Shown here one piece after another: positions 2,976-30,242 of a stretch of DNA of 32,754 bases. The stretch is taken from positions 4,432-37,185 of the forward strand of contig DYQK01000021.1 of NCBI GenBank assembly GCA_020719385.1, read 5' to 3'. The notes beneath the pieces were generated by a model, which was given only the letters and a program-made list of their open reading frames with translations, was not told the DNA's origin and ran no database searches. Each line of letters starts with the position of its first letter. The stretch's first letter is position 1. This DNA is from Rikenella microfusus. GTDB taxonomy: Bacteria > Bacteroidota > Bacteroidia > Bacteroidales > DYQK01. The position numbers and the translations under genes were made by a program.

Positions 2976-4322
2976 ATGAAAACCTTATTTTTTTCATTTT
3001 TTTTCATTTTTTCGTTTTCTTGTTTCGCTCAAGAAGGGTATAGAATCAAAATAAAAGTGAAGGGTTGGGAGAAAAAAGAGTTGCAACTTGGTTATTATCA
3101 AGAAGATAAGAAATTTTCTCTCAAAACTTCTACAACAGACAGAAAGGGTGAAGTCATTTTTTCGGACAAGGGAAAATTGCCTCGCGGCATTTATCTAATT
3201 ATTTTGCCGCAGCAAGGTTTTTTCGATTTTTTAATCAACGAAGACCAAGAATTTTCGTTAAAAACTGATACTTCTGACTTAATTTCGAAAATGGAAGTTT
3301 CTGGAAATGACGAGAATAAATATTTTTTCGATTATCAAAAATCAATGATAAAAAATAATCTGGAAATTGTTGAAATTGAGAAGAAATTGAAAAATTTTTC
3401 TGCAAAAAATAATTCTGAAAAAATTGATTCGGCAATGTGGCGGCAAAAAATTAAAAATATTCAAGAGGAAAGTGAACATTTGTGGAAAAAAGTTGTCAAT
3501 GAACACCCAAATTCGTTGCTCTCGGCGCTGCTTTCGACAATGAACGCTTACGATGAGGACGCTGAAAAATTTTTGAACAGAATTATTTTCGCTGAATCGG
3601 GCTTGCTGCGAACACCGTTTTATTTCAATATTATCCGTTTGTGGATTAAACGAAATATCGAGAAAAATTCTGCTTATATCATCTCTGAAAACGACAGATT
3701 TATTGAGAAATCAAGGGCAAACAAAGAAGTTTTTCAATATACAACTTTGTATTTGTTAAATTTTTATAATCAATTTTACAAAGCAGGAATAAATGATGTT
3801 GTTGTGCATTTGGCAGAGAAATATTTTTTGAATCCGCCTGCACAATGGCTTGATACTGCAATAATTAGCAGTATTTCTCAACGCGTGAGGAAGTTAAAAG
3901 TTTGTGCCATCGGTCAAGCAGCACCCGATATTACGGCTGAAAATATTGCGGGCGAGTTTATTTCGCTTTTGCAGGTGAACAAAAAATATACGTTTTTATT
4001 TTTTTGGTCAACAGGTTGTGGACATTGCGAGAAAGCAATTAATCTTTTTAAACAATATTTAACAGAAATTAAGGAAAATGATATGGAAATTTTCGGTCTA
4101 AACACAGAGCAAAATAAGGAGGAATGGAAAAAGTATGTCTCGCAGATGGAAATGAAATGGATAAATTGTATTGACCCAAATTCTACAACAAATTTTCGCG
4201 AGTTGTATTATGTTTACAGCACTCCGATTTTGTATGTTTTAGACTCGAAAAAAACAATTATCGCAAGATGTATCGGTGAAAATGAAATTGAATTTTTAGT
4301 GAAAAAAATGTTAAATAAATAA
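2976..4322 (+). CDS. Exported thioredoxin-like (TlpA/ResA-type) protein with DUF4369-like N-terminus
   Basis: The 448-residue protein has a signal peptide (about residues 1-18, cleavage after CFA). Residues 20-115 form a beta-rich domain like the DUF4369 modules that precede thioredoxin domains in Bacteroidota. A helical middle (about 120-310, similar to the DUF5106-type linker) follows, and the C-terminal thioredoxin fold (about 315-448) holds the redox motif C348-G-H-C351 in an FFWSTGCGHC context and a cis-proline region (YSTPILYV). It should act as a periplasmic or outer-membrane-facing thiol-disulfide reductase, perhaps in cytochrome or secreted-protein maturation; the substrate is unknown. 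It is the last gene of the plus-strand run and is followed directly by a strong terminator. Confidence 0.83.
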   Translation: MKTLFFSFFFIFSFSCFAQEGYRIKIKVKGWEKKELQLGYYQEDKKFSLKTSTTDRKGEVIFSDKGKLPRGIYLIILPQQGFFDFLINEDQEFSLKTDTSDLISKMEVSGNDENKYFFDYQKSMIKNNLEIVEIEKKLKNFSAKNNSEKIDSAMWRQKIKNIQEESEHLWKKVVNEHPNSLLSALLSTMNAYDEDAEKFLNRIIFAESGLLRTPFYFNIIRLWIKRNIEKNSAYIISENDRFIEKSRANKEVFQYTTLYLLNFYNQFYKAGINDVVVHLAEKYFLNPPAQWLDTAIISSISQRVRKLKVCAIGQAAPDITAENIAGEFISLLQVNKKYTFLFFWSTGCGHCEKAINLFKQYLTEIKENDMEIFGLNTEQNKEEWKKYVSQMEMKWINCIDPNSTTNFRELYYVYSTPILYVLDSKKTIIARCIGENEIEFLVKKMLNK

Positions 4323-4351
4323 AAAATTATTTAAAATTTTTCACAAAAATT

Positions 4352-4395
4352 TACTCTGAAAAAAGAATTTCAGGGTACTTTTTCTTTTTATTTTT
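4352..4395 (+). terminator. Intrinsic terminator of the peptidase-to-thioredoxin gene run
   Basis: A 10-bp stem (4352-4361 with 4368-4377, one T-G wobble) with a 6-nt loop is followed by an almost unbroken T-rich tail to 4395. It begins 30 bp after the thioredoxin-like gene's stop codon. Confidence 0.85.
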
Positions 4396-4423
4396 GCAAT
4401 TTAAACAAAATTTTTGCGATTTT

Positions 4424-4453
4424 TTTGTAATTCAAAAAAAGTTATTAATTTTG
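4424..4453 (+). promoter_or_regulatory. Promoter of the cheY gene
   Basis: TTTG at 4424-4427, an 18-bp spacer and TAATTTTG at 4446-4453 match the Bacteroidota consensus. The predicted transcript would have a leader of about 85 nt before the ATG at 4544, longer than at the other promoters here. Confidence 0.6.
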
Positions 4454-4543
4454 CGTTTTTAAAATAAAAAATTTTCGATTTTTCTTTTGAAAAAACGAAA
4501 AAAATTTGTAACATTGCAAATAAATTTTATAGTTTACTTTTTT

Positions 4544-4909
4544 ATGCAAAAAAAGATTTTAATTGTAGATGATTTTCAAAATACGCGTTACGTTACTCGC
4601 ACTGCTCTGGAGCGCGAGGGTTACAAAGTTCTTGAAGCGTGTGACGGCAAAGACGCACTGAAACATTTCAACGGTCAAGGTATTGACCTGGTGATAACAG
4701 ACCTCAATATGCCAGTAATGGACGGAATAACGCTTGTCGAAGAGATAAAAAAATTGCCTCTTTACCGTTATGTGCCGATTCTTTTGCTTACCACCGAGAC
4801 AAGCGAGGCAAAGAAAAAACGCGCCTTCGAAGCAGGAATTACGGGATGGATAAAAAAACCCTTCACTTTCGACAGATTTCTCGAAATGGTTAAAAAAGCG
4901 TTAAAATAA
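4544..4909 (+). CDS. cheY: CheY-type single-domain response regulator
   Basis: The 121-residue protein is one receiver domain with all conserved residues: acidic pocket D9-D10, phospho-acceptor D53 in the ITDLNMPVMDG segment, switch threonine T83, and K105-P106. It should accept phosphate from the CheA kinase encoded 65 bp downstream. The frame is open upstream to 4487, but the ATG at 4544 starts exactly at the first beta strand of the fold. An AT-rich hairpin spans its stop codon (4899-4925). The output partner (motor, gliding machinery or other) is not visible in the window. Confidence 0.88.
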   Translation: MQKKILIVDDFQNTRYVTRTALEREGYKVLEACDGKDALKHFNGQGIDLVITDLNMPVMDGITLVEEIKKLPLYRYVPILLLTTETSEAKKKRAFEAGITGWIKKPFTFDRFLEMVKKALK

Positions 4910-4925
4910 AATTTTTATTTTAACG
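4899..4925 (+). promoter_or_regulatory. Hairpin across the cheY stop codon
   Basis: An 11-bp perfect inverted repeat (4899-4909 with 4915-4925) with a 5-nt loop covers the cheY stop codon. It is not followed by a continuous T run, so it may be a partial attenuator or a stabilising 3' structure that reduces cheA expression relative to cheY. This is a guess from position. Confidence 0.35.
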
Positions 4926-4941
4926 TCTCTTGGTACTTTTT

Positions 4942-4961
4942 TTGTGTAATAAATTACACAA
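4942..4961. promoter_or_regulatory. Perfect 9-bp palindrome just upstream of cheA
   Basis: The arms TTGTGTAAT and ATTACACAA are separated by AA, giving a 20-bp dyad that ends 12 bp before the cheA start codon. It has the shape of a dimeric-regulator operator, or it could fold in RNA and mask the translation start. Confidence 0.4.
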
Positions 4962-4973
4962 TTCTAAAAACTT

Positions 4974-6605
4974 ATGAACGGAAATACGAAAATACAAGTT
5001 TTTCACGTACATTTTTTCCCAAACGAGGATATTTTCTCGCGTGGAGTAAATCCGTTTGCTATTCTCAACGAAATCAATGAGTTAGGTGCTTGCTTGGTTT
5101 GCCCATATTTTATAGAAATTCCTTCTCTCGAACATTTTGAAGTGGGAATATGTTTTTTCTCATGGAATATTTTTTTGGAAACTACAAAAACCGAATCAGA
5201 CATTGAAGATGTTTTTATGTTTGTTTTTGGGCAATATGAAATTCATCAAATCTCAACATTCTCGCTGCTTGGTAATGATGTTTTTTTGCAAAAAATTAAA
5301 GAGTTAATCAGTTTTTCGCCCTTAATTTCTGCCTCAGATTTAGAAAATTGCGTTAAAGATTTTTCCAACACCAAATCTGAAATAGAATTATTTATCGACA
5401 ATTCTGAAAACACAGAAAAAATTCTTATTCAAGACAATTCCTACGTCTACACGGGGCAAGCAACGTCAAGCATAAAAGTTTCCTCCGAGAAATTGGACAA
5501 TTTAATGAATTTAGTTAGCGAACTTATCACGAAACAAGCGGCACTGAGTCTGTTAGCGGAAGAGGAGAAAAACCCGAATTTATTAATTGTTATTGAAGAT
5601 ATAGAAAAAATTACGCGAAAATTAAAAGATAACGCACTCAATATTCGTCTTGTTCCTATTAATAATTTATTGTTGAGTCTGCGGCAAATGGTTCATCAAA
5701 TTGCGGCAGAGTTAAATAAGGAAGTCGATTTTGCCATCGAGGGCGGCGAAACTGAATTAGACAAAAATATCATTGATTATCTCGCAACCCCTTTGATGCA
5801 CATTTTGCGAAACAGCATTGACCACGGAATCGAGCAGGCAGAAGTGCGAGTACAAAAAGCGAAACCGCCGAAGGGTCGTTTGCAACTTTTTGCGTTTCAC
5901 ACAGGGACAAATGTTTTTATTCAGATTCACGATGACGGTGCAGGAATCGATGTTCACGAGATTCGAGAAAAGGCAATACAAAAAAATTTAATCCCAAAAG
6001 ATGCCATTTTAACCAACAAAGAAATTTATAATTTATTATTTATTCCACATTTTTCTGCCGCAAAACGAGTTACAGAAACATCAGGAAACGGAATGGGACT
6101 CGATATTGTTAAACAAAAAATATTTTCGCTGCGCGGCGAGGTAGAAATTGATTCTGAATTGCACTTGGGAACAATTGTTACGATAAAATTGCCGCTAACG
6201 CTTTCTATTATTGATACTTTGTTGATAAGTATAGATCATTTTCGATTTTTAATTCCTGTTTCGGCTGTCGATTCTTGCGAGGAAATTGAACATTCGGAGT
6301 TGATAAAAATTCATCAGAAACGTTTTATTTTAAATGATGAACTTGTGCCGTTTCTTTATTTGCGAGATGAATTTGAAATTCTCGAAAATCCGCCTGATAT
6401 TGAGAAAATTATCGTTGTAAAATATGAGGAAAAACGCGTTGCGTTAATTGTTGACACAATAATTGGTGAGCATCAGGCAGTTTTGAAACCTTTGGGTGAA
6501 ATTTTTAAAAATCAAGATTATTTCTCTGGGGCAAGTATTTTGGGAGACGGAAATGTGGCGTTTGTTATTGATGTGAATAAATTAATTAAACGAAAAAATA
6601 AATGA
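4974..6605 (+). CDS. cheA: CheA-like histidine kinase lacking the HPt (P1) domain
   Basis: The 543-residue protein starts directly with the P2-like domain (about residues 7-115, with NEDIFSRGVNPFAIL and ELG), followed by a linker, the P3 dimerisation helices (about 165-235), the P4 ATPase (about 240-405) and the P5 CheW-like regulatory domain (about 410-540). ATP-binding motifs are intact: N box H276-I-L-R-N280 with D283-H-G, G1 box D320-D-G-A-G324, and a G2 box SGNGMGLD around 370-377. The N-terminal HPt domain with its phospho-accepting histidine is absent, and only 64 bp separate the gene from cheY, so it is not simply missed upstream. Kinase activity should be possible only on an HPt protein supplied in trans. 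The start of the GNAT gene overlaps its stop (ATGA). Confidence 0.85.
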   Translation: MNGNTKIQVFHVHFFPNEDIFSRGVNPFAILNEINELGACLVCPYFIEIPSLEHFEVGICFFSWNIFLETTKTESDIEDVFMFVFGQYEIHQISTFSLLGNDVFLQKIKELISFSPLISASDLENCVKDFSNTKSEIELFIDNSENTEKILIQDNSYVYTGQATSSIKVSSEKLDNLMNLVSELITKQAALSLLAEEEKNPNLLIVIEDIEKITRKLKDNALNIRLVPINNLLLSLRQMVHQIAAELNKEVDFAIEGGETELDKNIIDYLATPLMHILRNSIDHGIEQAEVRVQKAKPPKGRLQLFAFHTGTNVFIQIHDDGAGIDVHEIREKAIQKNLIPKDAILTNKEIYNLLFIPHFSAAKRVTETSGNGMGLDIVKQKIFSLRGEVEIDSELHLGTIVTIKLPLTLSIIDTLLISIDHFRFLIPVSAVDSCEEIEHSELIKIHQKRFILNDELVPFLYLRDEFEILENPPDIEKIIVVKYEEKRVALIVDTIIGEHQAVLKPLGEIFKNQDYFSGASILGDGNVAFVIDVNKLIKRKNK

Positions 6606-7141
6606 ACAAATTTTTGCTCGAAACAGAAAATGTTAAACTGCGGGCTGTCGAGCCACAAGATGTAGATTTATTGTATAAATGGGAAAATAATACAGAAATT
6701 TGGAGAATCAGCAATACGCTTGTGCCGTTTTCGAAATTTCTGTTGAAAAAATATATCGAAAATTCATATCTCGATATTTATCAAGTTAAACAATTGCGTT
6801 TAATAATTGATTATAAACGAGATACGTTAAAATCTGTCGGAACAATAGAATTATTTGATTTTGATGCTTTTCATCAAAGAGCAGGAATTGGAATTTTAAT
6901 TGCAGAAAACGAATTTCGCAGAAAACATATTGCAAGCGAAGCGTTGACAATTTTGGTAAATTATTGTTTTGAAATTTTGCAGTTGCATCAAATTTTTTGC
7001 AACATCTCTGCGACCAACGAGGCAAGTTTAAATTTGTTTAAAAATCAAGGTTTTGAGATAATTGGGGTAAAAAAAGATTGGTTAAAATCTCTCGCGGGTT
7101 GGGAAGACGAACTTATGTTGCAAAAAATTTCCGAGATATAA
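6602..7141 (+). CDS. GNAT-family N-acetyltransferase (RimJ/RimL/SpeG-like)
   Basis: The 179-residue protein fits the GNAT fold: N-terminal LRAVEPQDVDLLYKWENN (strand 1 and helix 1), a GTIELFDFD strand, the acetyl-CoA pyrophosphate loop as RRKHIASEAL at about residues 101-110, and a C-terminal NEASLNLFKNQGFEIIG motif typical of RimJ/RimL-like enzymes. It should transfer acetyl from acetyl-CoA to an amine, but the acceptor is unknown. Its ATG overlaps the cheA stop by 4 bp, which implies co-transcription with cheY-cheA. A link to chemosensory signalling is possible but not shown. Confidence 0.8.
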   Translation: MNKFLLETENVKLRAVEPQDVDLLYKWENNTEIWRISNTLVPFSKFLLKKYIENSYLDIYQVKQLRLIIDYKRDTLKSVGTIELFDFDAFHQRAGIGILIAENEFRRKHIASEALTILVNYCFEILQLHQIFCNISATNEASLNLFKNQGFEIIGVKKDWLKSLAGWEDELMLQKISEI

Positions 7142-7165
7142 AATTCACACAATTTTTCGTTTAAA

Positions 7166-7198
7166 ATTTCTCACAAAAATACGATTTTTGTGAGAAAT
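7166..7198. terminator. Perfect 15-bp hairpin after the GNAT gene
   Basis: Arms 7166-7180 and 7184-7198 are fully complementary around a 3-nt loop. It lies between the end of the GNAT gene and the end of the convergent NACHT remnant, so it probably terminates both. There is no T run on the plus strand, which makes plus-strand termination less certain. Confidence 0.5.
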
Positions 7199-7208
7199 AA
7201 CAAAAAAA

Positions 7209-7370
7209 TTACGGCAAAGACGCAAAATAATCTTGCAAAATTTTATGGCGAAAACGATAACTGCCGCCATCATTATGCTCCAAAAAACGACAAGCACAAC
7301 CATATTCCAAAAAATCCACATAACGAAGCGGCATAACGCCCTCTAAATAAAAACAAAAACGCAAAATAAG
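7209..7370 (-). pseudogene. 3' remnant of a NACHT/STAND-type NTPase gene
   Basis: On the minus strand a 53-codon segment reads as the last part of a NACHT-type NTPase: an LRFCFYLEG segment, then LRYVDFLEYG, a short hydrophobic helix, GGSYRFRHKILQDYFASL and a natural stop. In full-length bacterial NACHT proteins this pattern (Y-x-F-x-H-x2-L-x-[DE]-[YH]-F-A) closes the NTPase-associated helical region. Nothing upstream in the frame continues the homology: it breaks at about 7370, where the promoter region of the restriction-modification cassette begins. I read it as a gene truncated when the cassette was inserted or the locus recombined. No large NACHT part lies elsewhere in the window. Confidence 0.6.
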
Positions 7371-7394
7371 GGTAAATTTCAGACACAAATACAA

Positions 7395-7402
7395 TATTTT
7401 TG
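7395..7402 (+). promoter_or_regulatory. -7 promoter element of the controller/endonuclease operon
   Basis: TATTTTTG ends 18 bp before the ATG at 7421, so the predicted transcript has a leader of only about 12-14 nt. It makes a start at the TTG at 7400 unlikely, because that codon would lie inside the promoter. Confidence 0.6.
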
Positions 7403-7420
7403 TCGCCCAAATTTGAGAGA

Positions 7421-7732
7421 ATGAAATCAAAAAAAACTGAAATTCAATTAAAAATTATTCATAAATTAAGATACTTAAGACAATATTATAACTTAAGTCA
7501 GGTGCAAATTTGTGATATTTTAGGTTTGAATAGCGCAGGACAAATTGGAAACATTGAAAGTCCTAAGTTTAAACAAAAGTATACCATTCAACAAATTTAT
7601 AAACTTGCAAATTTTTTCAATTATCCAATTGAAAAAATATTTTTATCGGACAAAGAATTAGAAAAATCTACAACAGAAGTAGTTAATGATTTGATATTAA
7701 GACTTATAGATTACGAAAAACAATTAAATTAA
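7421..7732 (+). CDS. XRE-family HTH regulator, likely controller (C) protein of the R-M cassette
   Basis: The 103-residue protein has a Cro/CI-type helix-turn-helix at about residues 12-67: RYLRQYYNLSQVQICDILGL, then the recognition-helix region and a KLANFFNYPIEKIF ending typical of XRE domains. It precedes the endonuclease gene by 7 bp and opposes the methyltransferase gene, the usual arrangement of a C protein that delays restriction until host DNA is methylated. I saw no clear C-box repeats at its promoter. The gene has only three CpG in its first 300 bp, against about twenty in the same length of cheY, so it appears to be of foreign origin. An unrelated XRE repressor is the alternative. 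Confidence 0.75.
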   Translation: MKSKKTEIQLKIIHKLRYLRQYYNLSQVQICDILGLNSAGQIGNIESPKFKQKYTIQQIYKLANFFNYPIEKIFLSDKELEKSTTEVVNDLILRLIDYEKQLN

Positions 7733-7739
7733 CAAAAAT

Positions 7740-8315
7740 ATGTGTTTAAATGTAAGTGATTTTGTAACTGCTTCTAAACAGGTAGAAGATATTGAAGAAC
7801 AATCTGTTGGTCTAATTAACGAAATTTCAGGTGACGAAATAACTGTCTTTTTTATTGGAAAAAAGAAAACAGTGAAAACAAGCAACCAAAATGTTACATT
7901 TTTAGATATTACAAAAACTGGAAAACCCTATAAAGTGAAAATATGTAACATTTGTCATATTCTCAAAGATATTGATGAATTTGACATAAACCAAACTGAC
8001 GCAAAAGGCAGAAAAACCACCAGACCAAGTTGTAAAGTTTGTCGAGTTGATATTGACGGAGAAAAGTTAAAAGCAGCCGAAAGTAAAAAATTAGACGCTA
8101 TAAAACCAAAACTTATCTTTACTTGTCCGATTTGTGAAAAAATGTCCATTGTTGGAGTTACTGCAAATTTAGTAAAAGACCACGATCACAAAACAGGTAA
8201 TGCTAGAGAATGGATATGCGACAGCTGCAATACTGGTTTGGGTAGGTTTAAAGACAACATAAAATTACTTGAAAAAGTAATTGATTATCTCAAAAAACAC
8301 TCAAACAAGCAATAG
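7740..8315 (+). CDS. HNH/endonuclease VII-fold type II restriction endonuclease, Hpy99I-like
   Basis: The 191-residue protein has a beta-rich N-terminus (about 22-65), then two zinc ribbons: C69-x2-C72 with C98-x2-C101, and C129-x2-C132 with C160-x2-C163. The second frames a beta-beta-alpha-Me nuclease motif, D147-H-D-H-K-T-G, with N164 in CNTGLG. This order (barrel, two Cys4 zinc sites, DH and N catalytic residues) and the length match what I recall of Hpy99I (190 residues; catalytic D148, H149, N165), a CGWCG-cutting enzyme. General membership in the recombination endonuclease VII family is firm; Hpy99I-like specificity is inference. It follows the HTH gene by 7 bp and overlaps the 3' end of the convergent methyltransferase gene by 15 bp. 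Confidence 0.78.
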   Translation: MCLNVSDFVTASKQVEDIEEQSVGLINEISGDEITVFFIGKKKTVKTSNQNVTFLDITKTGKPYKVKICNICHILKDIDEFDINQTDAKGRKTTRPSCKVCRVDIDGEKLKAAESKKLDAIKPKLIFTCPICEKMSIVGVTANLVKDHDHKTGNAREWICDSCNTGLGRFKDNIKLLEKVIDYLKKHSNKQ

Positions 8316-9134
8316 AGAATTTAATGTTGGTTGCTTTTCTATTAGTTTTATTCTTTCTTTTGCAATATTAACATAATCTTGTGAAATGTCAAAACCGATA
8401 AAATTTCGTTTCAAAAGTTTTGCCATTTTACAAGTTGTTCCTGAACCATTCATTGGGTCTAAAACTAAATCACCTTCATTTGTCCAAGAAAAAATATGGT
8501 CTCTTGCCAACTTTTCAGGGAAAATCGCAGTATGTTGAAAAGCAATTTTATCATTAGTGGAACCACCTAAACCAACTGCATATTCCCAAATATTTGTCAA
8601 TGTTTTTTCAGGATTTAACTCACCCCAAACTTTATTATTTACCCCATCGGTTTTTTTATTTGCAACAAGTTTTTCTTTACCTTGTCTTACTGTTTTTGTT
8701 TTCAAAGGATTAAACGTATTTGGACTACCTTTGGAAAAGATAAACATAAATTCGTAGCAATTTGTGTAAGCATTTGAACGCATAAAAGGTGTATTCCTTT
8801 TTTCGTAAATCATCACATCGTGAACATTGAAACCAATTTCTTGAAAATAGATTGCTTGTTTAAAACTTGTCAAAGAACGATTTCCATTTTTTATTTTATC
8901 TCCAACCACCCAAACAACAACTCCACCATTTTTAGTGATTCTATAAATTTGTTGTGCAATTTTTTCAAACTCAAAATGATAACCATTATAATCCCTTAGG
9001 TCATCATACGGTGGAGAAGTAACAACTAAATCAATAGTGTTATTTGAAATTTTTTGCATTCCCAAAACGCAATCCATACAATAAATCTCATTCAATTCCA
9101 ACTCTCCAGTCATATTTAGTTCAGAAGTTCCCAT
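8301..9134 (-). CDS. Type II DNA methyltransferase (beta-class, N4-cytosine or N6-adenine)
   Basis: The 277-residue enzyme has the catalytic motif TSPPY near the N-terminus (about residue 40) and the SAM-binding motif DPMNGSGTT near the C-terminus (about 235-243), followed by FIGFDIS. The order IV then I marks a beta-class amino methyltransferase. The SPPY form is used by both N4mC and N6mA enzymes, so the methylated base is uncertain. The frame is open to a TTG at 9161, but I start it at the ATG at 9134: a full promoter (TTTG-N20-TAAATTTG, 9172-9203) puts the transcript start near 9166, leaving a leader of about 32 nt. It should protect sites cut by the convergent endonuclease. Confidence 0.85.
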   Translation of the reverse strand: MGTSELNMTGELELNEIYCMDCVLGMQKISNNTIDLVVTSPPYDDLRDYNGYHFEFEKIAQQIYRITKNGGVVVWVVGDKIKNGNRSLTSFKQAIYFQEIGFNVHDVMIYEKRNTPFMRSNAYTNCYEFMFIFSKGSPNTFNPLKTKTVRQGKEKLVANKKTDGVNNKVWGELNPEKTLTNIWEYAVGLGGSTNDKIAFQHTAIFPEKLARDHIFSWTNEGDLVLDPMNGSGTTCKMAKLLKRNFIGFDISQDYVNIAKERIKLIEKQPTLNSLLLV

Positions 9135-9171
9135 ATAGCAGTGCTTAACTTTGATTAACAAAATGACAACG

Positions 9172-15204: not shown

Positions 15205-15234
15205 TTGAAAAAAATAAAATATTTTTTATCTTTG
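15205..15234 (+). promoter_or_regulatory. Promoter of the receiver-PP2C phosphatase gene
   Basis: TTG at 15205-15207, a 19-bp spacer and TATCTTTG at 15227-15234 fit the Bacteroidota consensus. The ATG at 15265 follows about 30 bp later. It is back to back with the promoter of the STAS-like gene. Confidence 0.65.
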
Positions 15235-15264
15235 CAAATATTTTTCAAAAATTTTTGTGCAAAA

Positions 15265-16449
15265 ATGAAAACTGACAAAATTTTAGTTGTTGAAGACCAA
15301 CCCGATATTTTAGAGTTAATCACGAATATTATTGAATATTCCGATATTGTTGAAAAGGTTTTTGGGGCAACAAACGCTCAGATGGGTATGAATATTGCGG
15401 TGAAGGAGCAGCCGAATCTTATCATTTCAGATTGGTATATGCCCGATATTTCGGGAATTGAGTTTATTCGGCGGTTGAAAAATCATTCGCTGACAAGAGA
15501 TATTCCGATAATTATTTGCACAGGAATAATGGATTCGTCTTATCATTTGAAAATTGCCCTTGACTCGGGTGCGGCAGATTTTATTCGCAAACCTATTGAT
15601 AGAATCGAGTTAATTGCCCGAATGCAGTCAGTTTTGAAATGGGCAAAATTGTACGATTTTACGAAACAACAAAAAGCAATTATTGAAAATAGTCATCGCG
15701 AGATTACCTCAAATATCACTTATGCGAGCCGAATTCAAAATGCAATTTTGCCGACAGAGGAGAATTTGCAAAGCGTTTTGAAGAATTATTTTATTTTTTG
15801 GAAGCCACGCGATATTGTTTCAGGCGATTTTTATTGGGCGACAAAAATTGGAAATTATATAATTCTTGCAGTTGCGGACTGCACAGGTCACGGCGTTTCG
15901 GGAGGATTTCTGTCAATGCTTGGAATTGCGTTTTTAAACGAGATAATTTATCGCAAAAATCTTGTTTCTGCTTCAGAAATTTTAGAGGAAATGCGGGCAA
16001 AAGTTAAAAATCTTCTCAAACAGACAGGAAATACTCACGAGGCAGGAGATGGAATCGATATGGCTTTGTGTATTTTAGACACAGAGGAAAATATTTTGCA
16101 ATTTTCAGGTGCAAACTTGCCCTTAATTTTGATTCGCAATAACGAGTTAATCGAGTTTCACCCAACGAGAAATCCGTTAGGAATTTATCTTTTAGAGAGA
16201 AATTTCGAGAATCATATTATTCCGTTGCAAAAAAATGATGTAATTTATTTGTTCTCAGACGGTTATGTTGACCAATTTGGAGGAGAAAACGGCGATAAAT
16301 TTATGACTCGCAAGTTTAAAAATTTACTTCTCTCGATTCATTCTTTCGAAATGAGTGAGCAAAAAACAATTTTAGAAAAAACACTTTTCGAATGGATGGG
16401 AAAACATAAACAAATTGACGATATTTTTGTTTTAGGTTTCAAAATTTAG
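15265..16449 (+). CDS. Response regulator with C-terminal PP2C (SpoIIE/RsbU-type) phosphatase
   Basis: The 394-residue protein has a receiver domain (about residues 4-125, acid pair E10-D11, phospho-acceptor D56 in SDWYMPD, and a RKP motif near 108). A coiled segment (about 130-175, ending ASRIQNAILPTEE) links it to a PP2C-like phosphatase domain (about 180-394). The metal-binding acidic motifs are present: SGDFYW, ADCTGHG, DGIDMAL and SDGYVDQ. It should be a phosphorylation-controlled serine/threonine phosphatase of the RsbU type, which normally acts on STAS-domain proteins. The frame is open to 15205, but the fold begins at the ATG at 15265 and the promoter excludes the earlier start. Confidence 0.87.
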   Translation: MKTDKILVVEDQPDILELITNIIEYSDIVEKVFGATNAQMGMNIAVKEQPNLIISDWYMPDISGIEFIRRLKNHSLTRDIPIIICTGIMDSSYHLKIALDSGAADFIRKPIDRIELIARMQSVLKWAKLYDFTKQQKAIIENSHREITSNITYASRIQNAILPTEENLQSVLKNYFIFWKPRDIVSGDFYWATKIGNYIILAVADCTGHGVSGGFLSMLGIAFLNEIIYRKNLVSASEILEEMRAKVKNLLKQTGNTHEAGDGIDMALCILDTEENILQFSGANLPLILIRNNELIEFHPTRNPLGIYLLERNFENHIIPLQKNDVIYLFSDGYVDQFGGENGDKFMTRKFKNLLLSIHSFEMSEQKTILEKTLFEWMGKHKQIDDIFVLGFKI

Positions 16450-17508: not shown

Positions 17509-17982
17509 ATGGAAAACTCAAATAAAATTACTTATTTGTCTTTTGTCTTGGGTGAGGAAATTTTCGCTGTCAATGTGGGCAAGGTGTTGGAAGTTTTGGA
17601 ACATCAAAAAATCACGCGAGTCCCAAAAACGCCGTCATATATCAAAGGAGTAATTAATTTTCGCGGTGAAATTTTGCCCGTCATTGACACGCGTCTGAAA
17701 TTAAATCTTGCCGAACAACAAATTAATGATAAAACCGTCATTATTGTTTTAGACCTAAAAGTTAAGGATAAATCGGTGATATTAGGTGCAATGGCAGATT
17801 CGGTGAAGGATGTTATTGAGATTCACGAAAACGAAATCCGCGATGTTCCCGATATTGGAAACCGATATAATGTTGAGTTTCTGCAAGGAATGGTGAAAAT
17901 TGAGAATATTTTTGTAATGTTATTGAACGTTGATAAAGTTTTTCTGTCAGACGAACAACAGCAACAAATTGTTGTCGAATAA
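17509..17982 (+). CDS. cheW: CheW-type chemotaxis adaptor
   Basis: The 157-residue protein is a single CheW domain: the first strand ITYLSFVLGEEIFAV, the motif EVLEHQKITRVPKTPSYIKGVINFRGEILPVID (about residues 28-60) that is diagnostic for the family, and the second subdomain ending MVKIENIFVMLLNVDKV. It should couple receptors to CheA through the P5 domain; CheA is encoded 11 kb upstream. It is the first gene of the run that continues through the restriction-modification gene and the two chemoreceptors. I see no clear promoter before it, so read-through from the nuclease gene is possible. Confidence 0.88.
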   Translation: MENSNKITYLSFVLGEEIFAVNVGKVLEVLEHQKITRVPKTPSYIKGVINFRGEILPVIDTRLKLNLAEQQINDKTVIIVLDLKVKDKSVILGAMADSVKDVIEIHENEIRDVPDIGNRYNVEFLQGMVKIENIFVMLLNVDKVFLSDEQQQQIVVE

Positions 17983-21000: not shown

Positions 21001-21377
21001 ATATCGAAATTTTCGAAAAATTATCAACTTTGGGACAATCTTTGATAGATTTACATTTGTTTGATGTTGCTAAAATTTCTTCGAAATTTAAACATCTCGG
21101 CAAATTCAAGGGCGAAGGCAATTTCTTCGTTACAAAAATAGAATTTCTCGATTCGAAACTTTTTATCAACGAGAGTCAATATTTTGAAAATGTTTCGCAA
21201 GAAATTTTCGATTTTTGCGTAGGAAATTGTAAAATTTTGGAAAAATATTTGCAGAAAAGAAAAGAAATTTCTATCTTTGAGAGTTTCGAAGAAGTCGAAA
21301 ATATCGTTCAAATAATTGCTGAAACTATTGAAATTTCAAGCGAAATTGATGATTTGGTTACAGCATTTTTACTTTGA
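18057..21377 (+). CDS. Type ISP-like (type IIG-type) restriction-modification fusion enzyme
   Basis: The 1106-residue protein combines restriction, methylation and specificity. The N-terminus has a PD-(D/E)XK-like nuclease pattern P60-D61 ... E75-N-K77 in a GYVENKK strand. The N6-adenine methyltransferase core has the helper YYTPTQIV, motif I D366-F-A-T-G-T-G372 and motif IV N482-P-P-Y485. The C-terminal third matches the type ISP specificity domain (VLFAQND... YRPFDFRYTFYTG... MPRKNVMKHM). Unlike LlaGI-type enzymes it has no helicase domain, so it is a shorter variant. Residues ~872-945 form a long charged coiled coil that breaks up the specificity region. It lies between cheW (74 bp) and the first chemoreceptor (23 bp), on the same strand. 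Confidence 0.82.
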   Translation: MTEFLEYIESLQSDSLENITEHSKRSALEMLLKKFAEKSVNFGRIKVLHEPKRKENYGAPDFLVNVDYATVGYVENKKLTENLEKTLKTPQIFKYRELCKNIILTNYLDFYWIFGENIEKVSLCEISDLESKHFIPDKEKCERIENMLLTFFAQVPQYIDNTTDMAVALANRCKNLRVFLTNELFHQTTELQEGRLHDLYSVFQKHIFNELTIKQFGDSFAQTLVYGLFLAKLNAKENILSLKNAKNFISATFQLIHELVAFLEELDKPEYREAKWIVDEILSIFNYLNVEKIQESLSFNKFEDPYIYFYEDFLSVYDPELRKAKGVYYTPTQIVNFIIRVLNDILISTFNISEGFAAKDKVTVLDFATGTGTFLMEIFKQILNNETFAPQKNKIISEHLLKNIFGFECLIAPYTVAHLKLSQYLKESGYEFLYGERMQIFLTNTLEPVELQGRIPFLPAITHEVKQAQNIKDKPVLVITGNPPYSYRSQNTGKWISEKIRNYYFVDGKPLKEKNSKGLQDDYVKFIRFAQNKMDNVEQGVVGIITNHSFLDNPTFRGMRQSLMKTFDQIYFIDLHGNARKKEKSPEGKPDKNVFKIMQGVCISIFIKKRDMEKKIFHTDFWGIKKEKLDLCLNNSLQTVDFQEIKPNSPFYFFVPQNQENRKEYDKFWSVKDIFDVCSIGITSARDKFTIHVKREKLIKTIRDFVNISESDARKKYNLGKDTRDWRVLFAQNDLKNNFFRKGEAYVMDVSKIKKIAYRPFDFRYTFYTGKTCGFHCMPRKNVMKHMEKPNIALITVRQMVIASGRWRHVFVSNTYTSAYLVGSTNYVFPLFYYNGSSGNSTSYLFKENDKRDNFTEKFRNFFKNLFGTKVLDKTQISEIEKSIKELKKQQKKIEKLISDSEKNKFPDEIIIGQKQLFEELKTQIDSKNKELEKFSTENSEVNFSPEQIFAYIYAVLNSNLYQKKYLEFLKMDFPKIPFIENIEIFEKLSTLGQSLIDLHLFDVAKISSKFKHLGKFKGEGNFFVTKIEFLDSKLFINESQYFENVSQEIFDFCVGNCKILEKYLQKRKEISIFESFEEVENIVQIIAETIEISSEIDDLVTAFLL

Positions 21378-21400
21378 AAAAATGAAAATTGAAAGAGATT

Positions 21401-24400
21401 ATGTTTAAAAAAATGAAATTAAAAACCCGCATTTTTGCCTCAATTTGCGGAATTGTCAGTTTTGCATTTGTCTTGGTTACTTTTACCGTTGCAACAAACT
21501 CGATTCGAAGCGCAAGAGAATCAGCATTTAACGAGGCAAAATCTCTTGCAAGTGAACACGCAACAGCCGTTGACAGCGAATTTGAAGTAAATATGCTTGC
21601 CACAAGAACCGTTGCACAGGTTTTCGAAAATCTGCGAAATAACGGTTTCACAGACAGAAAAACTTTCGACGACATACTCAAAAGTGTCTTAGAGGAAAAC
21701 GACAACTTCCTCTCTGTCTGGAGCATTTGGGAACCAAACGCATTAGACGACAACGACAAACGTTTCGTCAACACAACTTACGGCAACGAAAAAGGCAGAT
21801 TCACAACTGCTTGGTATCGAACAGGACCCAAAACCGTTGAGAGACAAGTAAATCCAGAACCCTCACCTGCGAGCGAATATTTTACAACCATCAAAGTCGG
21901 CGAAGAAGTAATGGTTAATCCGTATTATTACAAATACGAAACTCGTAATGATTCAGTTTTGGAAACCAGTGTTGTGGTGCCGATAAAAAATAAACGCGGC
22001 AAAGTTTTTGGAGTCGTTGGAATCGATATTGAACTTTCGAAGTTTCAGGAAATGGTCGAAAAAATTCGCCCCTACGAAACAGGAACAGCAGTTATTTTGT
22101 CCAACAATTCAACAATTGTCAGTTCAACGAAAAAAGACAGAGTCGGGAAAAATTTGAATCTCGTTGATAGTCTCGAAAATAAAAGCAGTTTGAAACCGTT
22201 TAATGTTGAGTCACAAATAAAATTGGGCAATACTTTTTCCTTTAACACTTTTAATTCGCTTTCAAGTTCAGAAAATCATTTTATTTTTGTGCCGTTTCGG
22301 GTCGGAAAAACTAAAATGCCCTGGTCTTTTGGCATTTCCGTGCCGATGAATAAAATTATGGAAGACGCAAACAGAGCGATTCTTTATACAATTATCATCG
22401 GAATTTTGTGTATGCTTGGGTTAATTTTAGTCATTTATTGGTTGACGAGAAATATTGAAAAAATTATCAATAAATTAATCAACGAAACTAAAAACCTTAC
22501 CGATGAGGCAAGTAAGGGCAATTTCAAGATTCGGGGCAATGTCGAAAATATTGATAACGAATTTCAACCAATTATTGTCGGAATAAATAAAACGCTAGAC
22601 ACAATTATTGCGAAAACATTTTGGTACGAAACTATATTAGACTCAATACCGCTTCCCATTTCGGTTACCGATTCAGAGTTAAAATGGACGTTCTTCAACA
22701 AAGCCGCCGAAGGATTAGCACACATAAAACGCGAAACACATATCGGTCAACATTGTAATAATTGGGGTGCAGATATTTGTAACAACGAAAATTGCGGAAT
22801 TAAACGGTTGCAGCAAGGAATAACTAAAACTTTTTTCAAACAAGAAGCCTCAAATAAAAATTATCAAGTTGATGCTGCTTTTTTGAGAGACGAGAAAGGA
22901 AATATTATCGGGCAAATCGAAATTGTGCAAGATATTACTCATATGCAGAGAGTTGCAGAATTTAACGAAGTTGAAGTCAATAAACTTCTCGAAAATCTGA
23001 GTTTTATCTCCGAAGGACGTATAAAAATAGACTCGAATGTTACTCCTGTAGACGAATATACGCAGGAAGAATTTGCGAAGTTCACAAAAATTTATCAATA
23101 TTTAACTGTCACCGTCGAATCTATGCAGTTGTTGATTTATGATACGATTGCGATAAGTAAAAGCGCCACAGCAGGTGATTTGGCAAACATAAAAATTGAT
23201 CTCTCGCGTCATAAAGGCGATTATGCAGTCGTAATGAAATCGTTGAACAAAGTTTTCGAAATGATTATTAGGCCCCTGCGTCAGGGAAGTATAATTTTGG
23301 AACAACTCGCAAGCGGCGAATGGGTTGAGGAAATTGATTCGTCTACTTATAAAGGTGATTTTAAAATTTTTATGGAAAGCATGTCGATGATTCGAAATTC
23401 TATAAAAACTTTGTTTAACGAACTTTCGCAACTCATCGACCAAATTTCTGTCGGAAATTTAAAAACTGTTTGCGAAACAAATTTGCTGCAAGGTTTTTAT
23501 AAAGATATTTTATTCGGCATAAATCAAACTGTCGAGGCAATTGTTACTCCGCTGAACAAAAATGTCGATTATTTGCGAAAAATCTCGAAAGGAGAAATCC
23601 CCGAACGAATCACAGAAAATTATCAAGGCGATTTCGAACATTTTAAAAATGCGTTAAATCGTTGTATTGATGCGTTAAATGGAATTGTTGAAAACGTTAA
23701 AACGTATATTTCCTTCGCACAAGCAGGAAAAATTAACGAAATTAATTTTGAAACAGACAAATATCAAGGCGTTTTTGCCGATATTATGTCGGGACTCAAT
23801 ATTTCTGCACAGGCAACCGCCACGCCGATAAACGAAATGATTGACATTTTGAATCGAATTGCAAAAGGAGACTTGTCGAAAACCGCTGAAGGAAATTATC
23901 AAGGAAAATTTATTGAAATGAAAAGTGCCTGCAACACTTCAATTACTGCGTTAAAAAGAATGCAAAATTATTTAACCAACACCATCGAAGCGTTAAAAAT
24001 CGGCGATATTGACTCGCGTTGCAGCACGGAAAATTTGCAAGGTGTTTATTTCGATTTGTTAAACGGCACAAATCAAGCCATCGAAACCATTGTTACTCCC
24101 GTAATTGAAGGGACAACAATTTTAAACGAATACGCAAACGGCGAATATCACAGAGAAATGCGAGATTTAGTCGGAAAACAAGTCGTCTTTTCAGATAGTA
24201 TTAAGTTGATTCGCAACAACTTAATGATTTTGATTCAAGATACGATGCAACTTTCTATCTTCGCTGCCGAAGGAAAATTTGACAAACGAATCGAAATCGA
24301 GAAATACAAAGGAAATTATGCCGTTATTGCTAAAAGTTTAAACAAACTTTTTGACAATATTATTTCCCCAATTAATTATGCGAAAAATTGGATAAAAGCA

Positions 24401-26029
24401 CTCTCCGAAGGAGAAATGGTCGAAAAAATTGAGGTAGAAAATTATAAAGGTGAATTTAAAATTTTTATGGAAAACCTCGATTTGATTAGAGAATCCATCG
24501 ATATTTTGCTTGACGAAATTTTGATGGTCATAAATCACACGGCAGAAGGAAAATTGAACTATCGCTGCGAGGCAAAACGCTTAAATGGTTTTTATCTGTC
24601 TATTTTAGAAGGCGTAAATGCCACTCTTGACGCAATTATTTCGCCGCTTTATGTAATGGCAGGATTTATTGAGAAAGTTTCAAAAGGCGAGGAATTAAAA
24701 CCAATTACAGACCAATATAACGGCGATTTTAATATTATCAAAAATAATATTAATGTTTGCGTTGAGATAATTTATAAACTTATCAATGAAATTAACTCGT
24801 TGATAAAAAGCACGTTAAACGGAAATCTCAAAACGAGAATAAAATCTAATGAATATCAAGGAAATTGGGAAGTTATTGGAAAAGGAATCAACGAAACACT
24901 CAACGCACTTACCGACCCGCTCTCGGTTACAAGTCAATATTTAACGAAAATCTCGAAAGGTGAACTTCCTCCGACTATTTCTCAAGAGTACAAAGGTGAA
25001 TTTAACTCGTTTAAAAATTCGATTAACTCTTTAATTGAAGCGTCAACGTTAATTGTTGAGAAATCGAAGTTAATTTCTCAAGGACATCTTGATATTGAAC
25101 TGCAGAAACGTTCTGACAAAGATGAATTAATAGAATCCTTCACAGAAATGGTAAAAACAATTTCGAAAACCGTTTCAAATGTTGCCTCCGTTTCGAATAG
25201 CATTGCCGAAGCATCGCAAAGTATGAATCAGATGGCACTCAACATGACGCAAGGGGCTAATGAACAAAGTTCGTCTACCGAGGAAGTTTCCTCTTCGATG
25301 GAAGAAATGGCGGCGAACATAAATCAAAATACTGAAAATGCTTTGTTGACTGAAAAAATTGCTCTCAAAGCGGCTCAAGATATTCTCAAAAGCAATAAAT
25401 CTGTTATGTCAACGGTTGAGTCAATGAGAAATATCGCTGAAAAAATTAAAATTATTTCTGAAATTGCCCGCAAAACCGATTTGCTTGCCATCAACGCTGC
25501 CATCGAAGCCGCTCGCGCAGGCGAACACGGAAAAGGTTTCGCCGTAGTGGCAACGGAAGTGCGAAAGTTAGCCGAAAGAAGTCAAACCGCCGCAGACGAG
25601 ATAAACAAAGTTTCGAGTCAGAGTGTGAAAATCGCAGAGGAATCAGGAAAATTGTTGTCTGAAATTGTGCCAGATATTCAAAATACGGCAAAATTGGTTC
25701 AAGAAATTGCCGCTGCAAGTCGCGAACAAAATACAGGTGCCTCGCAGGTCAATAATGCGATTTCGCAACTGAATCGAGTAACGCAGCAAAATTCTGCTGC
25801 CGCAGAAGAACTCTCAACAAGTGCAGAGGAACTTGCCTCGCAAGCCGACCAACTTTTACAATCCATCTCGTTTTTTAAAATGAAAATGGAGAAAGAAATT
25901 TCTCAAAAAATCTCGTTGAATAAAAAAAATCCGTTAATTTTGCGATGCGAAACTAAACGTTCTACCAATTTAAAAGGAGTAACTTTAATTCTTGACGACG
26001 AAAATGACCAAAATTATGAAAAATTTTAA
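21401..26029 (+). CDS. Methyl-accepting chemotaxis protein with dCache, PAS and about 17 HAMP units
   Basis: The 1542-residue receptor has TM1 (about 12-33), a periplasmic double-Cache-like sensor (about 35-320, with [16 protein letters not shown] and [12 protein letters not shown] segments), TM2 (about 327-347), one HAMP unit, and a PAS domain (about 406-512) containing C452, C460 and C465 in an [17 protein letters not shown] context. A tandem array of about 16 further HAMP units (about 523-1263) leads to a complete MCP signalling hairpin (about 1265-1490) whose tip reads [26 protein letters not shown]. Methylation-type EE pairs are present ([21 protein letters not shown]). The C-terminus ends NYEKF. 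I start at the ATG at 21401; a TTG at 21389 and an ATG at 21413 are alternatives. It follows the restriction-modification gene by 23 bp. Confidence 0.88.
22970..25190 (+). repeat. Tandem HAMP array of the first chemoreceptor (about 16 units)
   Basis: The array consists of units of 43-47 residues, each with two amphipathic helices around a G-[DENK]-[ILFW] turn. Units of two alternating types (GExP...YxGDF and GNLxxR...LNGxY) occur in pairs of about 91 residues. One unit has a unique G-K-Q insert (about 24100-24230). Confidence 0.75.
25472..25586 (+). repeat. 115-bp near-identical segment shared with the second chemoreceptor, copy 1
   Basis: The segment encodes the signalling-domain tip. It matches 29691-29805 at 108 of 115 positions without gaps, and six of the seven differences are synonymous. 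Confidence 0.8.
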
Positions 26030-29000
26030 TATCGAAACCGTAAAAAACTTTTTCTCGCAGCGACAAAATCGATTACTCGTTTATTATTTTGTGATTTTGC
26101 TGCTTTTAACCTACTTTTTTTCAGATAGTAAATGGACAAGCAACATTCATTTGCATACGATTTTCGATTTGTCTGCGACATTTTTTATTTTTGTCAGTGG
26201 GTTAATCTCGTTTATTTATTTTTCCACAACGAAAAAAGAAGTTTATTTATTTCTCAGTGCAGCCTTTCTCGGTACAACATTGCTTGATTTATATCATACA
26301 ATTGTGCCGTCAGAATGGTTTATTAACCGTTTTCCAGAAACACCTGCGGCAGTCATTGGGTGGAGTTGGCTCGCTCCACGTTTATTTCTCGCCGCTGTAC
26401 TTTGTTTTTGTGCATTTTTTTACCAAAAAAAGAGAGAATTATTCCCAAACAAAACGACTCAACATAAAATCAAAGTTGTTTTTGGAACAATTTTTCTTGC
26501 TTCAATAATATTTTTCGTATTTTTTGCGTTAGTAAAATTGCCTTCCGCATACAATTCGAACTTTTTTATTCACAGAGTGCAAGAATTTTTGCCCGCAATG
26601 TTGTTTATCATTGCGTTTTGGGGTTTTGCAAAAAACGGAATCTCGCAAAAAAAACATTTCGAGTATCTTTTGTTGTTTGGAATCATTACAAATATCGTAA
26701 TCCAAACTTTTGTAATGCCTTTTTCCCATCAACCTTATGATTTTTTCTTTGATTTTGCTCATGTTTTAAAAATTTTGAGTTACTTTCTCATTATGGGCGG
26801 ACTTTTGGGTGATATTTCTGAACGTTTTAAACTGCTCGAAGTGCGAAAAGAAACCGTTTTGAATTGCGAAACAAAGTTTCGGTCTATTTTTGACTGCGGA
26901 GTAGAGAACGCAGGAATCGAAATTATGCTTGAAGAAGCACTTATCCCGTTGAAAACGACTAACGAATATATTAAAAAACTTGCAAACGGCGAAATTCCGC
27001 CCCAAATTACCGCAGAATACAAAGGTGATTTTAATAAAATTAAAATTTATTTCAATTCTTTGATAGAAACTTTTACAGCAATGTTCTCGGAAACAGAAAA
27101 TCTTGCTAAAAATGCTGCTGACGGAAACCTCAAAATGAGAGCAGATATCTCAAAACATCAAGGAATTTATCAACAAATTATCAACAACTTCAATAAAACG
27201 CTTGATAATTGGAATCAACCAATTACATTGACCGCTACTTATCTCGAAAAAATTGCGAAAGGTGAAATTTCTGAACACATAAAAGAGGATTTCAAAGGCG
27301 ATTTTAACATTTTAAAAACGAATGTTAATTCTTGTATTGAGTCTTTGCACGGCGTTGTCGATTCCATCAACCTATATATATGGCTGATGCGAGGCGGCGA
27401 GATTGAGAAAATTAAATTTGACGCAAATAGTTTCGAAGGCGTTTACGGCGAAATTATCAACGGTTTAAACCTTGCCGCAGTCGCAGTTAATCAACCGTTC
27501 TCCGAGATAAACAACGTTTTAATCAATATTTCTCAAGGCGATTTGTCGAAAAAAATCGAAGGAAATTATGCTGGAAGTTTTTCTGTAATGAAAAATGCGT
27601 GCAATAAACTCGTCAAAACGCTAAATATTTTGCAGGACGAATTGAATTATGTTATCTCGCAACAAAAAGAAGGCGAATGGGACTCAAGATGCAACACTAC
27701 GCAAGTGTCAGGAATTTTTCATTCTCTACTCACAGGAATCAACGAAACGCTCGACGCCGTGGGACAACCTCTCAAAAACGGAATAACTATTCTCAACCAT
27801 TATGCAGACGGCGATTTTAACAAAACCATCCCAATTTTCAAAGGCAAACAACTCGAATTTTCTAATTCGTTAAATACTTTGAAAAACAATATGATTGCGG
27901 TAATGAAAGACTCAATGACAATGTTAAGCAACGCTTCGGCAGGAAATTTGAACGTTGTCATAGACCAAGAAAAGCACAAAGGCGGTTTCGGAATAATGAT
28001 AAAAAGTATGAACAAAATTTTTTCAACAATTTCAGAACCTTTGATATATGCGACAAATTGGGCAAAACGACTCGCAGCAGGTGAAAAAGTTGAGAACATT
28101 GAACTCGAAAAGTACAAAGGAACTTTCAGAGATTTGATGGAAAGTTTAAATTTAATTCACAAATCTATAGAAAATCTTTTGTCAGAAATATTCGCACTCA
28201 TCGAAAAAGCAGAAGCAGGAAATCTTAATTATCGCGCTAAAACCGAAGGTTTAAACGGAAATTACAATGAAATTTTAAACGGAATTAATAAAACTCTTGA
28301 TTCTATTGTTTCGCCGTTGCAAATTGCCGCCTCATATTTCGAGAAAATTGCGAAAGGACAAATCCCACAAAAAATCACCGAAAATTATAACGGAGATTTT
28401 GAAAATATTAAAAATAGCGTCAATAAATGTATTGAGGCAATAAATTTGTTGGTCAACGATACAAATTTTATCTCATCAGCCGCCGCTGAAGGCAATATTA
28501 TGATTCGAGGTAACACAGAAATTCATCAAGGAGAATTTAAGCAAATTATTTCGGGAATGAATCAGACACTTGACTCAATAATTTTGCCGTTCAATACTGC
28601 CGCAGAATATATTGATAACATCTCGAAAGGAATAATTCCGAAGAAAATCGACCAACAATACAAAGGCGTTTACAACATTTTGAAGGAAAATTTGAATCAA
28701 TGTATCGAGGCAATCAATGCTTTGACCGTTGATACGACTTATTTGTTGTTCTCAGCGGGAGAAGGAAAGTTAAACATCCGCGCAGACAGCACGAAACATC
28801 AGGGAAAATTTAAAAATATCATTGAAGGAGTGAATAAAACTCTCGATGCAGTTACAAATCCCGTTCTTACCTCTACGCAACTTCTCGACAAAATTGCGAA
28901 AGGTGAAATTCCGCAAAAAATTTCAGAAACTTATAGCGGCGACTTTAACGTGATGAAAAATGCGATAAATCAATGTATTGATACGTTAAATTTGCTTTTG

Positions 29001-30242
29001 TCAAGTATCAACGAATTTATTGCGTTTTCGAAACGCGGCGAACTGAACCAAATACGTTTTGAAACGAAAAATTTCGAAGGAATTTACAAAGCGATAATCG
29101 AAGGTTTAAATCAGTCTGCCGCTTTGATTTCTGCTCCCTTGGACAATATTACGAAAGTGTTGAATCGAATTGCTCAAGGTGATGTCAGCAATAAACTCAC
29201 AGAAAATTATTTCGGACAATTTAAGGTTTTAAAAGAAAGTGCGAACACGTTAATTGAGGCGGAACATTTAATTATTGAAACTTCGAAGCAAATTGCTGCG
29301 GGAAATCTTAACGTCAAGATACAAAAACGCTCGGAAAAAGATGAATTTTTCGATTCTTTTGGAAACATGGTGAAAACGTTGGTTTTTGCGTTAGAAAATT
29401 TTGCAGAAGCAGCACATAACATTGCGGAAACCGCCCAACAGATGAATAAAATGTCAACTTTTATGGCAGAATCTGCAAACAGACAGGCAACAGCCGCCCA
29501 AGAGGCTTCTTCTTCGATGGAAGAAATGGCGGGTAGCATCAGACAAAACACCGACAACGCAAAACAAACCGAATCTATCGCACTCAAAGCGGCTAATGAT
29601 ATTTTGAAAGGCAATAAATCTGTTGAGATAACATCAGAATCGATGAGAAATATCGTTGAAAAAATTAGAATCATTACAGAGATTGCGAGAAAAACCGATT
29701 TGCTTGCCATCAACGCTGCCATTGAAGCGGCTCGCGCTGGTGAACAAGGAAAAGGGTTCGCCGTAGTGGCAACGGAAGTGCGAAAGTTAGCCGAGAGAAG
29801 TCAAAATGCGGCAAATGAAATCAACGAAGTTTCACTTTCGAGTGTGCAAGTGGCTGAAAATTCGAGTAAATTGCTTTCGAAAATTGTTCCCGATATTCAA
29901 AATACCGCAAAATTAGTGCAAGAAATTGCCGCAGCAAGCAAAGAACAAGACTCTGGCGTTAACCAAATCAATTCTGCCATTCAATTATTGAACCAAATCA
30001 CGCAGGAAAATACTGCTTCTGCCGAAGAACTCTCGACAAGTGCAGATGTTCTTGCTGCTCAATCTGAAAAATTGTTGGAAATTCTTTCTCAATATAAGTT
30101 TAACAAAACTTTTGAAACTGAAAAACAAAAAAAACAAGAGAAAAAATTTATTGTTGAACAGACAAAAAAGAAAAATGTCACAAATTTTGGAGGAATAAAC
30201 TTAAAACTTGACGATGACGACTCAGAATTTGAGAAATATTAA
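26016..30242 (+). CDS. Methyl-accepting chemotaxis protein with an 8-TM sensor and 18 HAMP units
   Basis: The 1408-residue receptor starts with about eight membrane segments (residues ~20-265) that form a MASE-like sensor with conserved-looking [14 protein letters not shown] and [10 protein letters not shown] motifs; it has no large periplasmic domain, so it probably senses membrane-linked or hydrophobic signals or the energy state. After a short linker come 18 tandem HAMP units (about 311-1128) and an MCP signalling hairpin (about 1128-1360) almost identical at its tip to the first receptor. The C-terminus ends EFEKY. The frame extends back to a TTG at 25992; I prefer the ATG at 26016 (14-bp overlap with the first receptor gene), with 26004 as an alternative. 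It is a paralogue of the upstream gene. Confidence 0.86.
26947..29400 (+). repeat. Tandem HAMP array of the second chemoreceptor (18 units)
   Basis: Eighteen units of 43-47 residues run without interruption from the end of the membrane domain to the signalling domain. Units 3-11 match units 6-14 of the first receptor in order, and units 3-5 reappear as units 15-17 within this array. Confidence 0.75.
29691..29805 (+). repeat. 115-bp near-identical segment shared with the first chemoreceptor, copy 2
   Basis: The segment matches 25472-25586 at 108 of 115 positions. The only amino-acid change is H to Q at the hairpin tip (AGEHGKG against AGEQGKG). Confidence 0.8.

Follow-up and report, generated by a model that had tools for sequence, protein, structure and literature searches.

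A CheA paralogue without an HPt domain and with altered P4 residues in a draft genome of Rikenella microfusus

CheA dimers phosphorylate P1 across the dimer. The HPt (P1) domain was present in 98.3% of 13,673 CheA proteins and was named a core domain (Berry et al., PMC10782961). That survey attributed the remaining HPt-less proteins to contig ends or to an Hpt gene located within the same operon, and treated R. sphaeroides as unique (PMC10782961). An earlier survey, of 206 species, reported CheA proteins made up of P3-P4-P5 only in R. sphaeroides plus four further species, one of them Salinibacter ruber (PMC2829493). The P1-less CheA4 of R. sphaeroides phosphorylates P1 of CheA3 (PMC3591291). 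In E. coli, CheA-short is an alternative translation product from codon 98 of cheA (PMC7696710).

The window, the whole stretch of 32,754 nucleotides analysed here, contains a cheA gene whose product lacks the HPt domain. The gene lies internal to a 37-kb contig, not at a contig end, of a 288-contig draft genome. The gene, its domains and the upstream region are arranged as follows.

4544..4909, plus strand: cheY, single-domain response regulator of the 'DDFENTR/DDFQNTR' subtype, 121 aa from an internal ATG (Pfam Response_reg, 1.4e-28)
4910..4973, plus strand: cheY-cheA gap, 64 bp, 20% GC, two hairpins in and around it
4974..6605, plus strand: cheA without HPt (P2-P3-P4-P5), 543 aa (Pfam, frame, alignment)
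4974..5258, plus strand: P2-like (CheY-docking) domain, residues 1-95, beta-alpha-beta-beta-alpha-beta (alignment to P2 of full-length relatives, model, Foldseek)
5466..5642, plus strand: P3 dimerisation helices, residues 165-223 (Pfam H-kinase_dim)
5646..6200, plus strand: P4 ATP-binding domain, residues 225-409, N and G1 boxes intact (Pfam HATPase_c, 7.4e-15)
6219..6593, plus strand: P5 CheW-like domain, residues 416-540 (Pfam CheW, 1.6e-20)

The initial annotation had described a CheA that lies immediately 3' of cheY, begins with a P2-like domain, keeps P3, P4 and P5 and lacks HPt, and each of these points held. Pfam matched H-kinase_dim (residues 165-224), HATPase_c (272-409) and CheW (416-540), and no Hpt match was returned for the protein. 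P3 (PF02895) scored 37.1 bits against a cut-off of 23, the P4 HATPase with its N, G1, F and G2 boxes scored 55.8 bits with atypical F/lid and G2 sequences, and the CheW-like P5 (PF01584) scored 73.6 bits. The stop-to-stop frame is just 545 codons long and opens two codons before the ATG, so a longer start is impossible, and the 64-bp upstream gap is, as claimed, too short in any frame to hold an HPt. Comparison by tblastn of four HPt domains from the same genome with the window and with the initial 6 kb of its contig gave chance matches only, and a genome-wide Hpt search found none on the cheA contig (C248), all six matches lying on other contigs. The N-terminal model (residues 1-131, pLDDT 88) is predicted to form beta-alpha-beta-beta-alpha-beta followed by two helices, with no four-helix HPt. 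Foldseek with this model retrieved P2 of T. maritima CheA (1u0s) with probability 0.99 and E = 0.018 at rank 41, a low rank because many ferredoxin-like folds score alike; alignment to the P2 domains of relatives agreed with a P2-like N-terminus. An upstream HPt that had been missed and a degenerate HPt fold in residues 1-160, two of the findings named beforehand as fatal to the annotation, were thus ruled out by the frame, by tblastn and the contig-wide Hpt search, and by the predicted fold. Since Pfam, the genome Hpt search, tblastn and the fold revealed no HPt/P1 with a phospho-His in the protein or its operon, the window protein is a CheA paralogue and not a complete CheA.

Like the window CheA, E. 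coli CheA-short consists of P2-P3-P4-P5 without a phosphorylatable P1 and occurs in the same cell as full-length CheA, and its length is 557 aa (second CDS of cheA) compared to 543 aa. However, CheA-short shares one gene and an identical P4 with full-length CheA and keeps the end of P1, whereas the window CheA has a diverged gene of its own, carries P4 changes, has no HPt coding upstream and is not an alternative translation product of a full-length cheA. CheA4 of Rhodobacter (Cereibacter) sphaeroides likewise has P3-P4-P5 and no P1, but it also lacks P2 and shares one operon with CheA3, which bears P1 and is kinase-dead (PMC10782961, PMC3591291). The window CheA keeps P2 and has no such partner adjacent; the four HPt-bearing CheAs of the genome are encoded on other contigs, and their P4 boxes are intact. 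Bipartite CheAs also have a kinase polypeptide without HPt, yet their HPt gene lies in the operon (PMC10782961), whereas there is none in the operon, window or contig here. The window CheA therefore fits none of the HPt-less classes of that survey, namely contig end, same-operon HPt gene and CheA3/CheA4. It differs from the P3-P4-P5-only CheAs in its retained P2, lack of an operon partner and P4 substitutions, although the occurrence of one of these in Salinibacter ruber (PMC2829493) means that the suggestion of a split CheA wholly new to Bacteroidota was overstated.

The window CheA was aligned with 65 other CheAs including that of E. coli (66 in total). Two motifs are altered.

5685..5702, plus strand: P3-P4 junction motif, residues 238-243, 'QMVHQI' for 'RLVRDL' (R338Q, E. 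coli numbering; R in 65/65 others)
6048..6095, plus strand: ATP lid / G2 motif, residues 359-374, 'HFSA...SGNGM' for 'GFST...SGRGV' (G458H, T461A, R471N, V473M; T and R in 65/65 others)

The initial annotation stated that all ATP-binding boxes are retained; the N, G1 and G2 boxes are indeed present, but the lid/G2, which reads 'PHFSA...SGNGMGL', and the P3-P4 junction are atypical. Three of the 29 columns in P2-P5 that are invariant among 63 relatives are changed, Q238 (R338), A362 (T461) and N372 (R471), all of them in or at P4; E. coli CheA, from another phylum, is changed at none of the 29. Seven of 74 near-invariant columns are changed in the window CheA, all within residues 238-243 and 359-374, while E. 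coli CheA also shows seven departures, scattered and with none in those two motifs. By simple counting, the chance that all seven would cluster in this way is 6e-6, a descriptive figure for motifs picked post hoc. The remaining 67 of 74 columns are kept, including N-box, G1-box and G2-glycine residues, which indicates that the window CheA is under constraint. Foldseek comparison of the P4 model with T. maritima P4 structures gave TM (target) values of 0.86-0.95. The 'GNGMGL' sequence is similar to the G2 box found in ordinary histidine kinases, which makes ATP binding plausible. R471 is a lid residue modelled to form a salt bridge with P1 D74 in E. coli CheA (PMC10653900), and 51 of 63 relatives have Asp at the D74 position. 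By alignment, the surface predicted to face P1 differs in the one aligned protein without a P1 of its own. This joint loss of P1 and P1 contact points to a functional shift rather than simple truncation, and is compatible with either a trans-kinase or a dead kinase.

A match to the window CheA was found in 116 of 393 genomes of the order. The full-length orthologues listed from these genomes have frames no shorter than about 630 aa, and HPt is present in those that were aligned; the phospho-His column is His in 98% of the 63 aligned relatives, the sole exception being cut by a contig end. The loss of HPt is above chance, as the full-length orthologues checked in the order keep the domain. In 395 genomes sampled from the phylum, the CheAs that were checked included no further HPt-less case. 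The family of the window CheA is represented by its own genome alone, the HPt-less gene being known from one genome, and in the tree the protein sits alone on a branch of length 0.98, without a well-supported sister. Several seemingly HPt-less orthologues were rejected: one has a frameshift with an N and its HPt in an overlapping frame (G098), three are cut by contig ends (G161, G173, G450), one has its HPt cut by a contig start (G255), three short frames begin at most 9 bases from a contig end (G017, G383, G006), and two frames of 573-574 codons both carry HPt (G558, G630). Two other orthologues contain internal stops, TAA in one (G168:C184:11104-12657) and TAG/TAA in the other (G036:C40:377-2001), and are possibly pseudogenes or draft errors.

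The cheY upstream of the window cheA is 59% identical to the cheY beside the CheA gene on contig C104 of the same genome and 66% identical to a cheY that neighbours cheA in family f77 genomes. In other families, cheY-cheA pairs with the same cheY subtype have an HPt-bearing CheA, so the ancestor most likely had HPt. Two stable hairpins span 4900-4961 (z = -3.7 compared to shuffles), one across the cheY stop and the other a perfect 20-bp palindrome, TTGTGTAATAAATTACACAA, at 4942-4961, with no second exact copy in the genome. The hairpins may uncouple cheY and cheA expression. An Rfam search of 4000-7500 returned nothing, and promoter and terminator scans showed no excess over shuffled sequence. 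Directly after the window cheA lies a GNAT acetyltransferase gene, in the place held by cheW in C104 and several relatives. Further chemosensory genes of the window are listed below.

15205..16449, plus strand: fusion of a response regulator to a SpoIIE phosphatase, which may be an output protein of the locus (Pfam Response_reg, SpoIIE)
17509..17982, plus strand: cheW, possible coupling protein for the window CheA (Pfam CheW, 3.8e-31)
21389..26029, plus strand: poly-HAMP chemoreceptor with dCache, PAS, 7 HAMP_2 and MCPsignal (Pfam)
25992..30242, plus strand: poly-HAMP chemoreceptor with MASE3, 9 HAMP_2 and MCPsignal (Pfam)

These four genes lie 9-24 kb downstream of cheA on the same strand among unrelated genes. 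A link between the window CheA and the poly-HAMP receptors, proposed at the outset, is possible but weak, since cheW and both receptors are 11-24 kb away with unrelated genes between. The two giant receptor genes (21389-30242) overlap each other. The chemosensory cluster is split between cheW and the receptors by a gene for a 1106-aa N6-methylase with a Type ISP C-terminal specificity domain (18057-21377; Type ISP restriction enzyme-like). The genes at 7400-9161 look like a small restriction-modification island: in a row they encode an HTH-like protein, a protein rich in cysteine and nuclease-like by eye, and an N6/N4 DNA methylase, with search support for the methylase alone. A small ORF pair at 31567-32231, the second a TumE-family toxin, is likely a toxin-antitoxin pair.

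The proposed search for a second cheA yielded four full-length CheAs on other contigs (C104, C162, C11, C55), all with HPt, phospho-His and intact ATP boxes, so a kinase-dead HPt-bearing partner of the CheA3 type was rejected. Like the window CheA, C104 has cheY directly upstream; unlike it, C104 (686-codon frame, cheY-cheA-cheW order) combines HPt with canonical lid/G2 and RLVRDL motifs and is directly followed by cheW. Over P2-P5, the genome search put the identity of the two proteins at 48%. Their P3 domains are 64% identical, which ranks first of 65 and gives the largest P3-minus-P4 excess, P4 being only 48% identical; this is suggestive of a dimer interface that the two P3 domains may share.

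From sequence and predicted structure, we infer kinase activity, heterodimerisation, trans-phosphorylation and the identity of the partner. The reading we favour, with a probability of roughly 0.45, is that the window CheA is a paralogue minus HPt with a gene-encoded CheA-short layout, which pairs with one of the full-length paralogues (perhaps C104) in a heterodimer and phosphorylates that partner's HPt in trans. An ancestral HPt would have been lost from a CheA paralogue that has its own gene. The protein would join receptor arrays through P5 and CheW, its P3 would dimerise with a full-length paralogue, C104 being the best candidate, its P4 would phosphorylate the HPt of the partner, and its P2 would dock CheY, probably the product of the adjacent cheY. 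This is consistent with a layout and length that match CheA-short, with the phospho-His-bearing HPt domains offered by the four other CheAs, with the 67 conserved near-invariant columns (N, G1 and G2 glycines among them) and with P3 as the domain most like C104, as expected under a common dimer interface. Action of a P1-less CheA on the P1 of another CheA is established for R. sphaeroides CheA4/CheA3 (PMC3591291), and the changed R471 is the modelled contact of P1 D74 (PMC10653900). However, a trans-kinase must still bind a P1, and with R471, T461 and R338 changed, all three of them invariant in 65/65 others, the kinase activity of the window CheA could be weak or absent; conservation of the N and G1 boxes is no proof of catalysis. 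In addition, the window cheA shares no operon with a full-length CheA, and shared ancestry or gene conversion may be enough to explain the P3 likeness to C104.

Almost as likely as this trans-kinase role is one as inhibitor or scaffold. The window CheA would then fill P5/CheW sites and form heterodimers, with P2 docking CheY and P4 transferring little or no phosphate, such that the output of full-length CheA is lowered or tuned. The three changed residues that are invariant in 65/65 others, all in or at P4, the confinement of all seven near-invariant departures to two short P4 motifs (6e-6, post hoc) and the absence of its own HPt substrate argue for such a role, yet the N box, the G1 box and the glycines of G2 are preserved, and ATP binding is plausible. 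Under either reading, the window CheA probably functions only together with a full-length sister kinase or serves to restrain such a kinase.

The initial annotation had called for a separate HPt protein or another role, and had proposed a search for stand-alone HPt proteins. The need for a foreign HPt or another job stands, and just one stand-alone HPt was found in the genome (C213, 116 aa), which would allow a two-gene split kinase with this protein as the dedicated phospho-acceptor. Such a split is improbable, since the C213 HPt is on another contig in a row with a DUF6272 protein and SiaC (G000:C213, L054 5985-7927; a Sia-like cluster), has stand-alone relatives in at least five related genomes in which no CheA matched (G014, G038, G043, G047, G053) and is thus unlikely to be a dedicated partner, and published bipartite CheAs keep HPt in the same operon (PMC10782961). 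Least likely is an assembly error that dropped the HPt segment or a recent pseudogene in which it was lately deleted, for although the genome is in 288 contigs, the gene has an intact 543-codon frame inside a 37-kb contig, the gap at the junction is AT-rich and hairpin-forming, the P4 substitutions are independent of any error in an HPt segment, the loss of both P1 and its conserved contact on P4 from one protein makes an assembly gap hard to credit, and the end branch of 0.98 with 67/74 conserved columns argues for long persistence under constraint.

The window CheA offers a natural test of the roles of the invariant R338, T461 and R471, which are changed in 1 of 66 aligned CheAs, the HPt-less one. 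It may, tentatively and with somewhat less than even odds, represent a free-standing, gene-encoded CheA-short, in which HPt loss goes together with remodelling of the P4 residues that touch P1 or relay control (R338, T461, R471); the outcome would be a subunit acting only on other CheAs in mixed arrays and linking several chemosensory pathways per cell. If mixed dimers do form, the locus would show how one cell wires several chemosensory kinases together.
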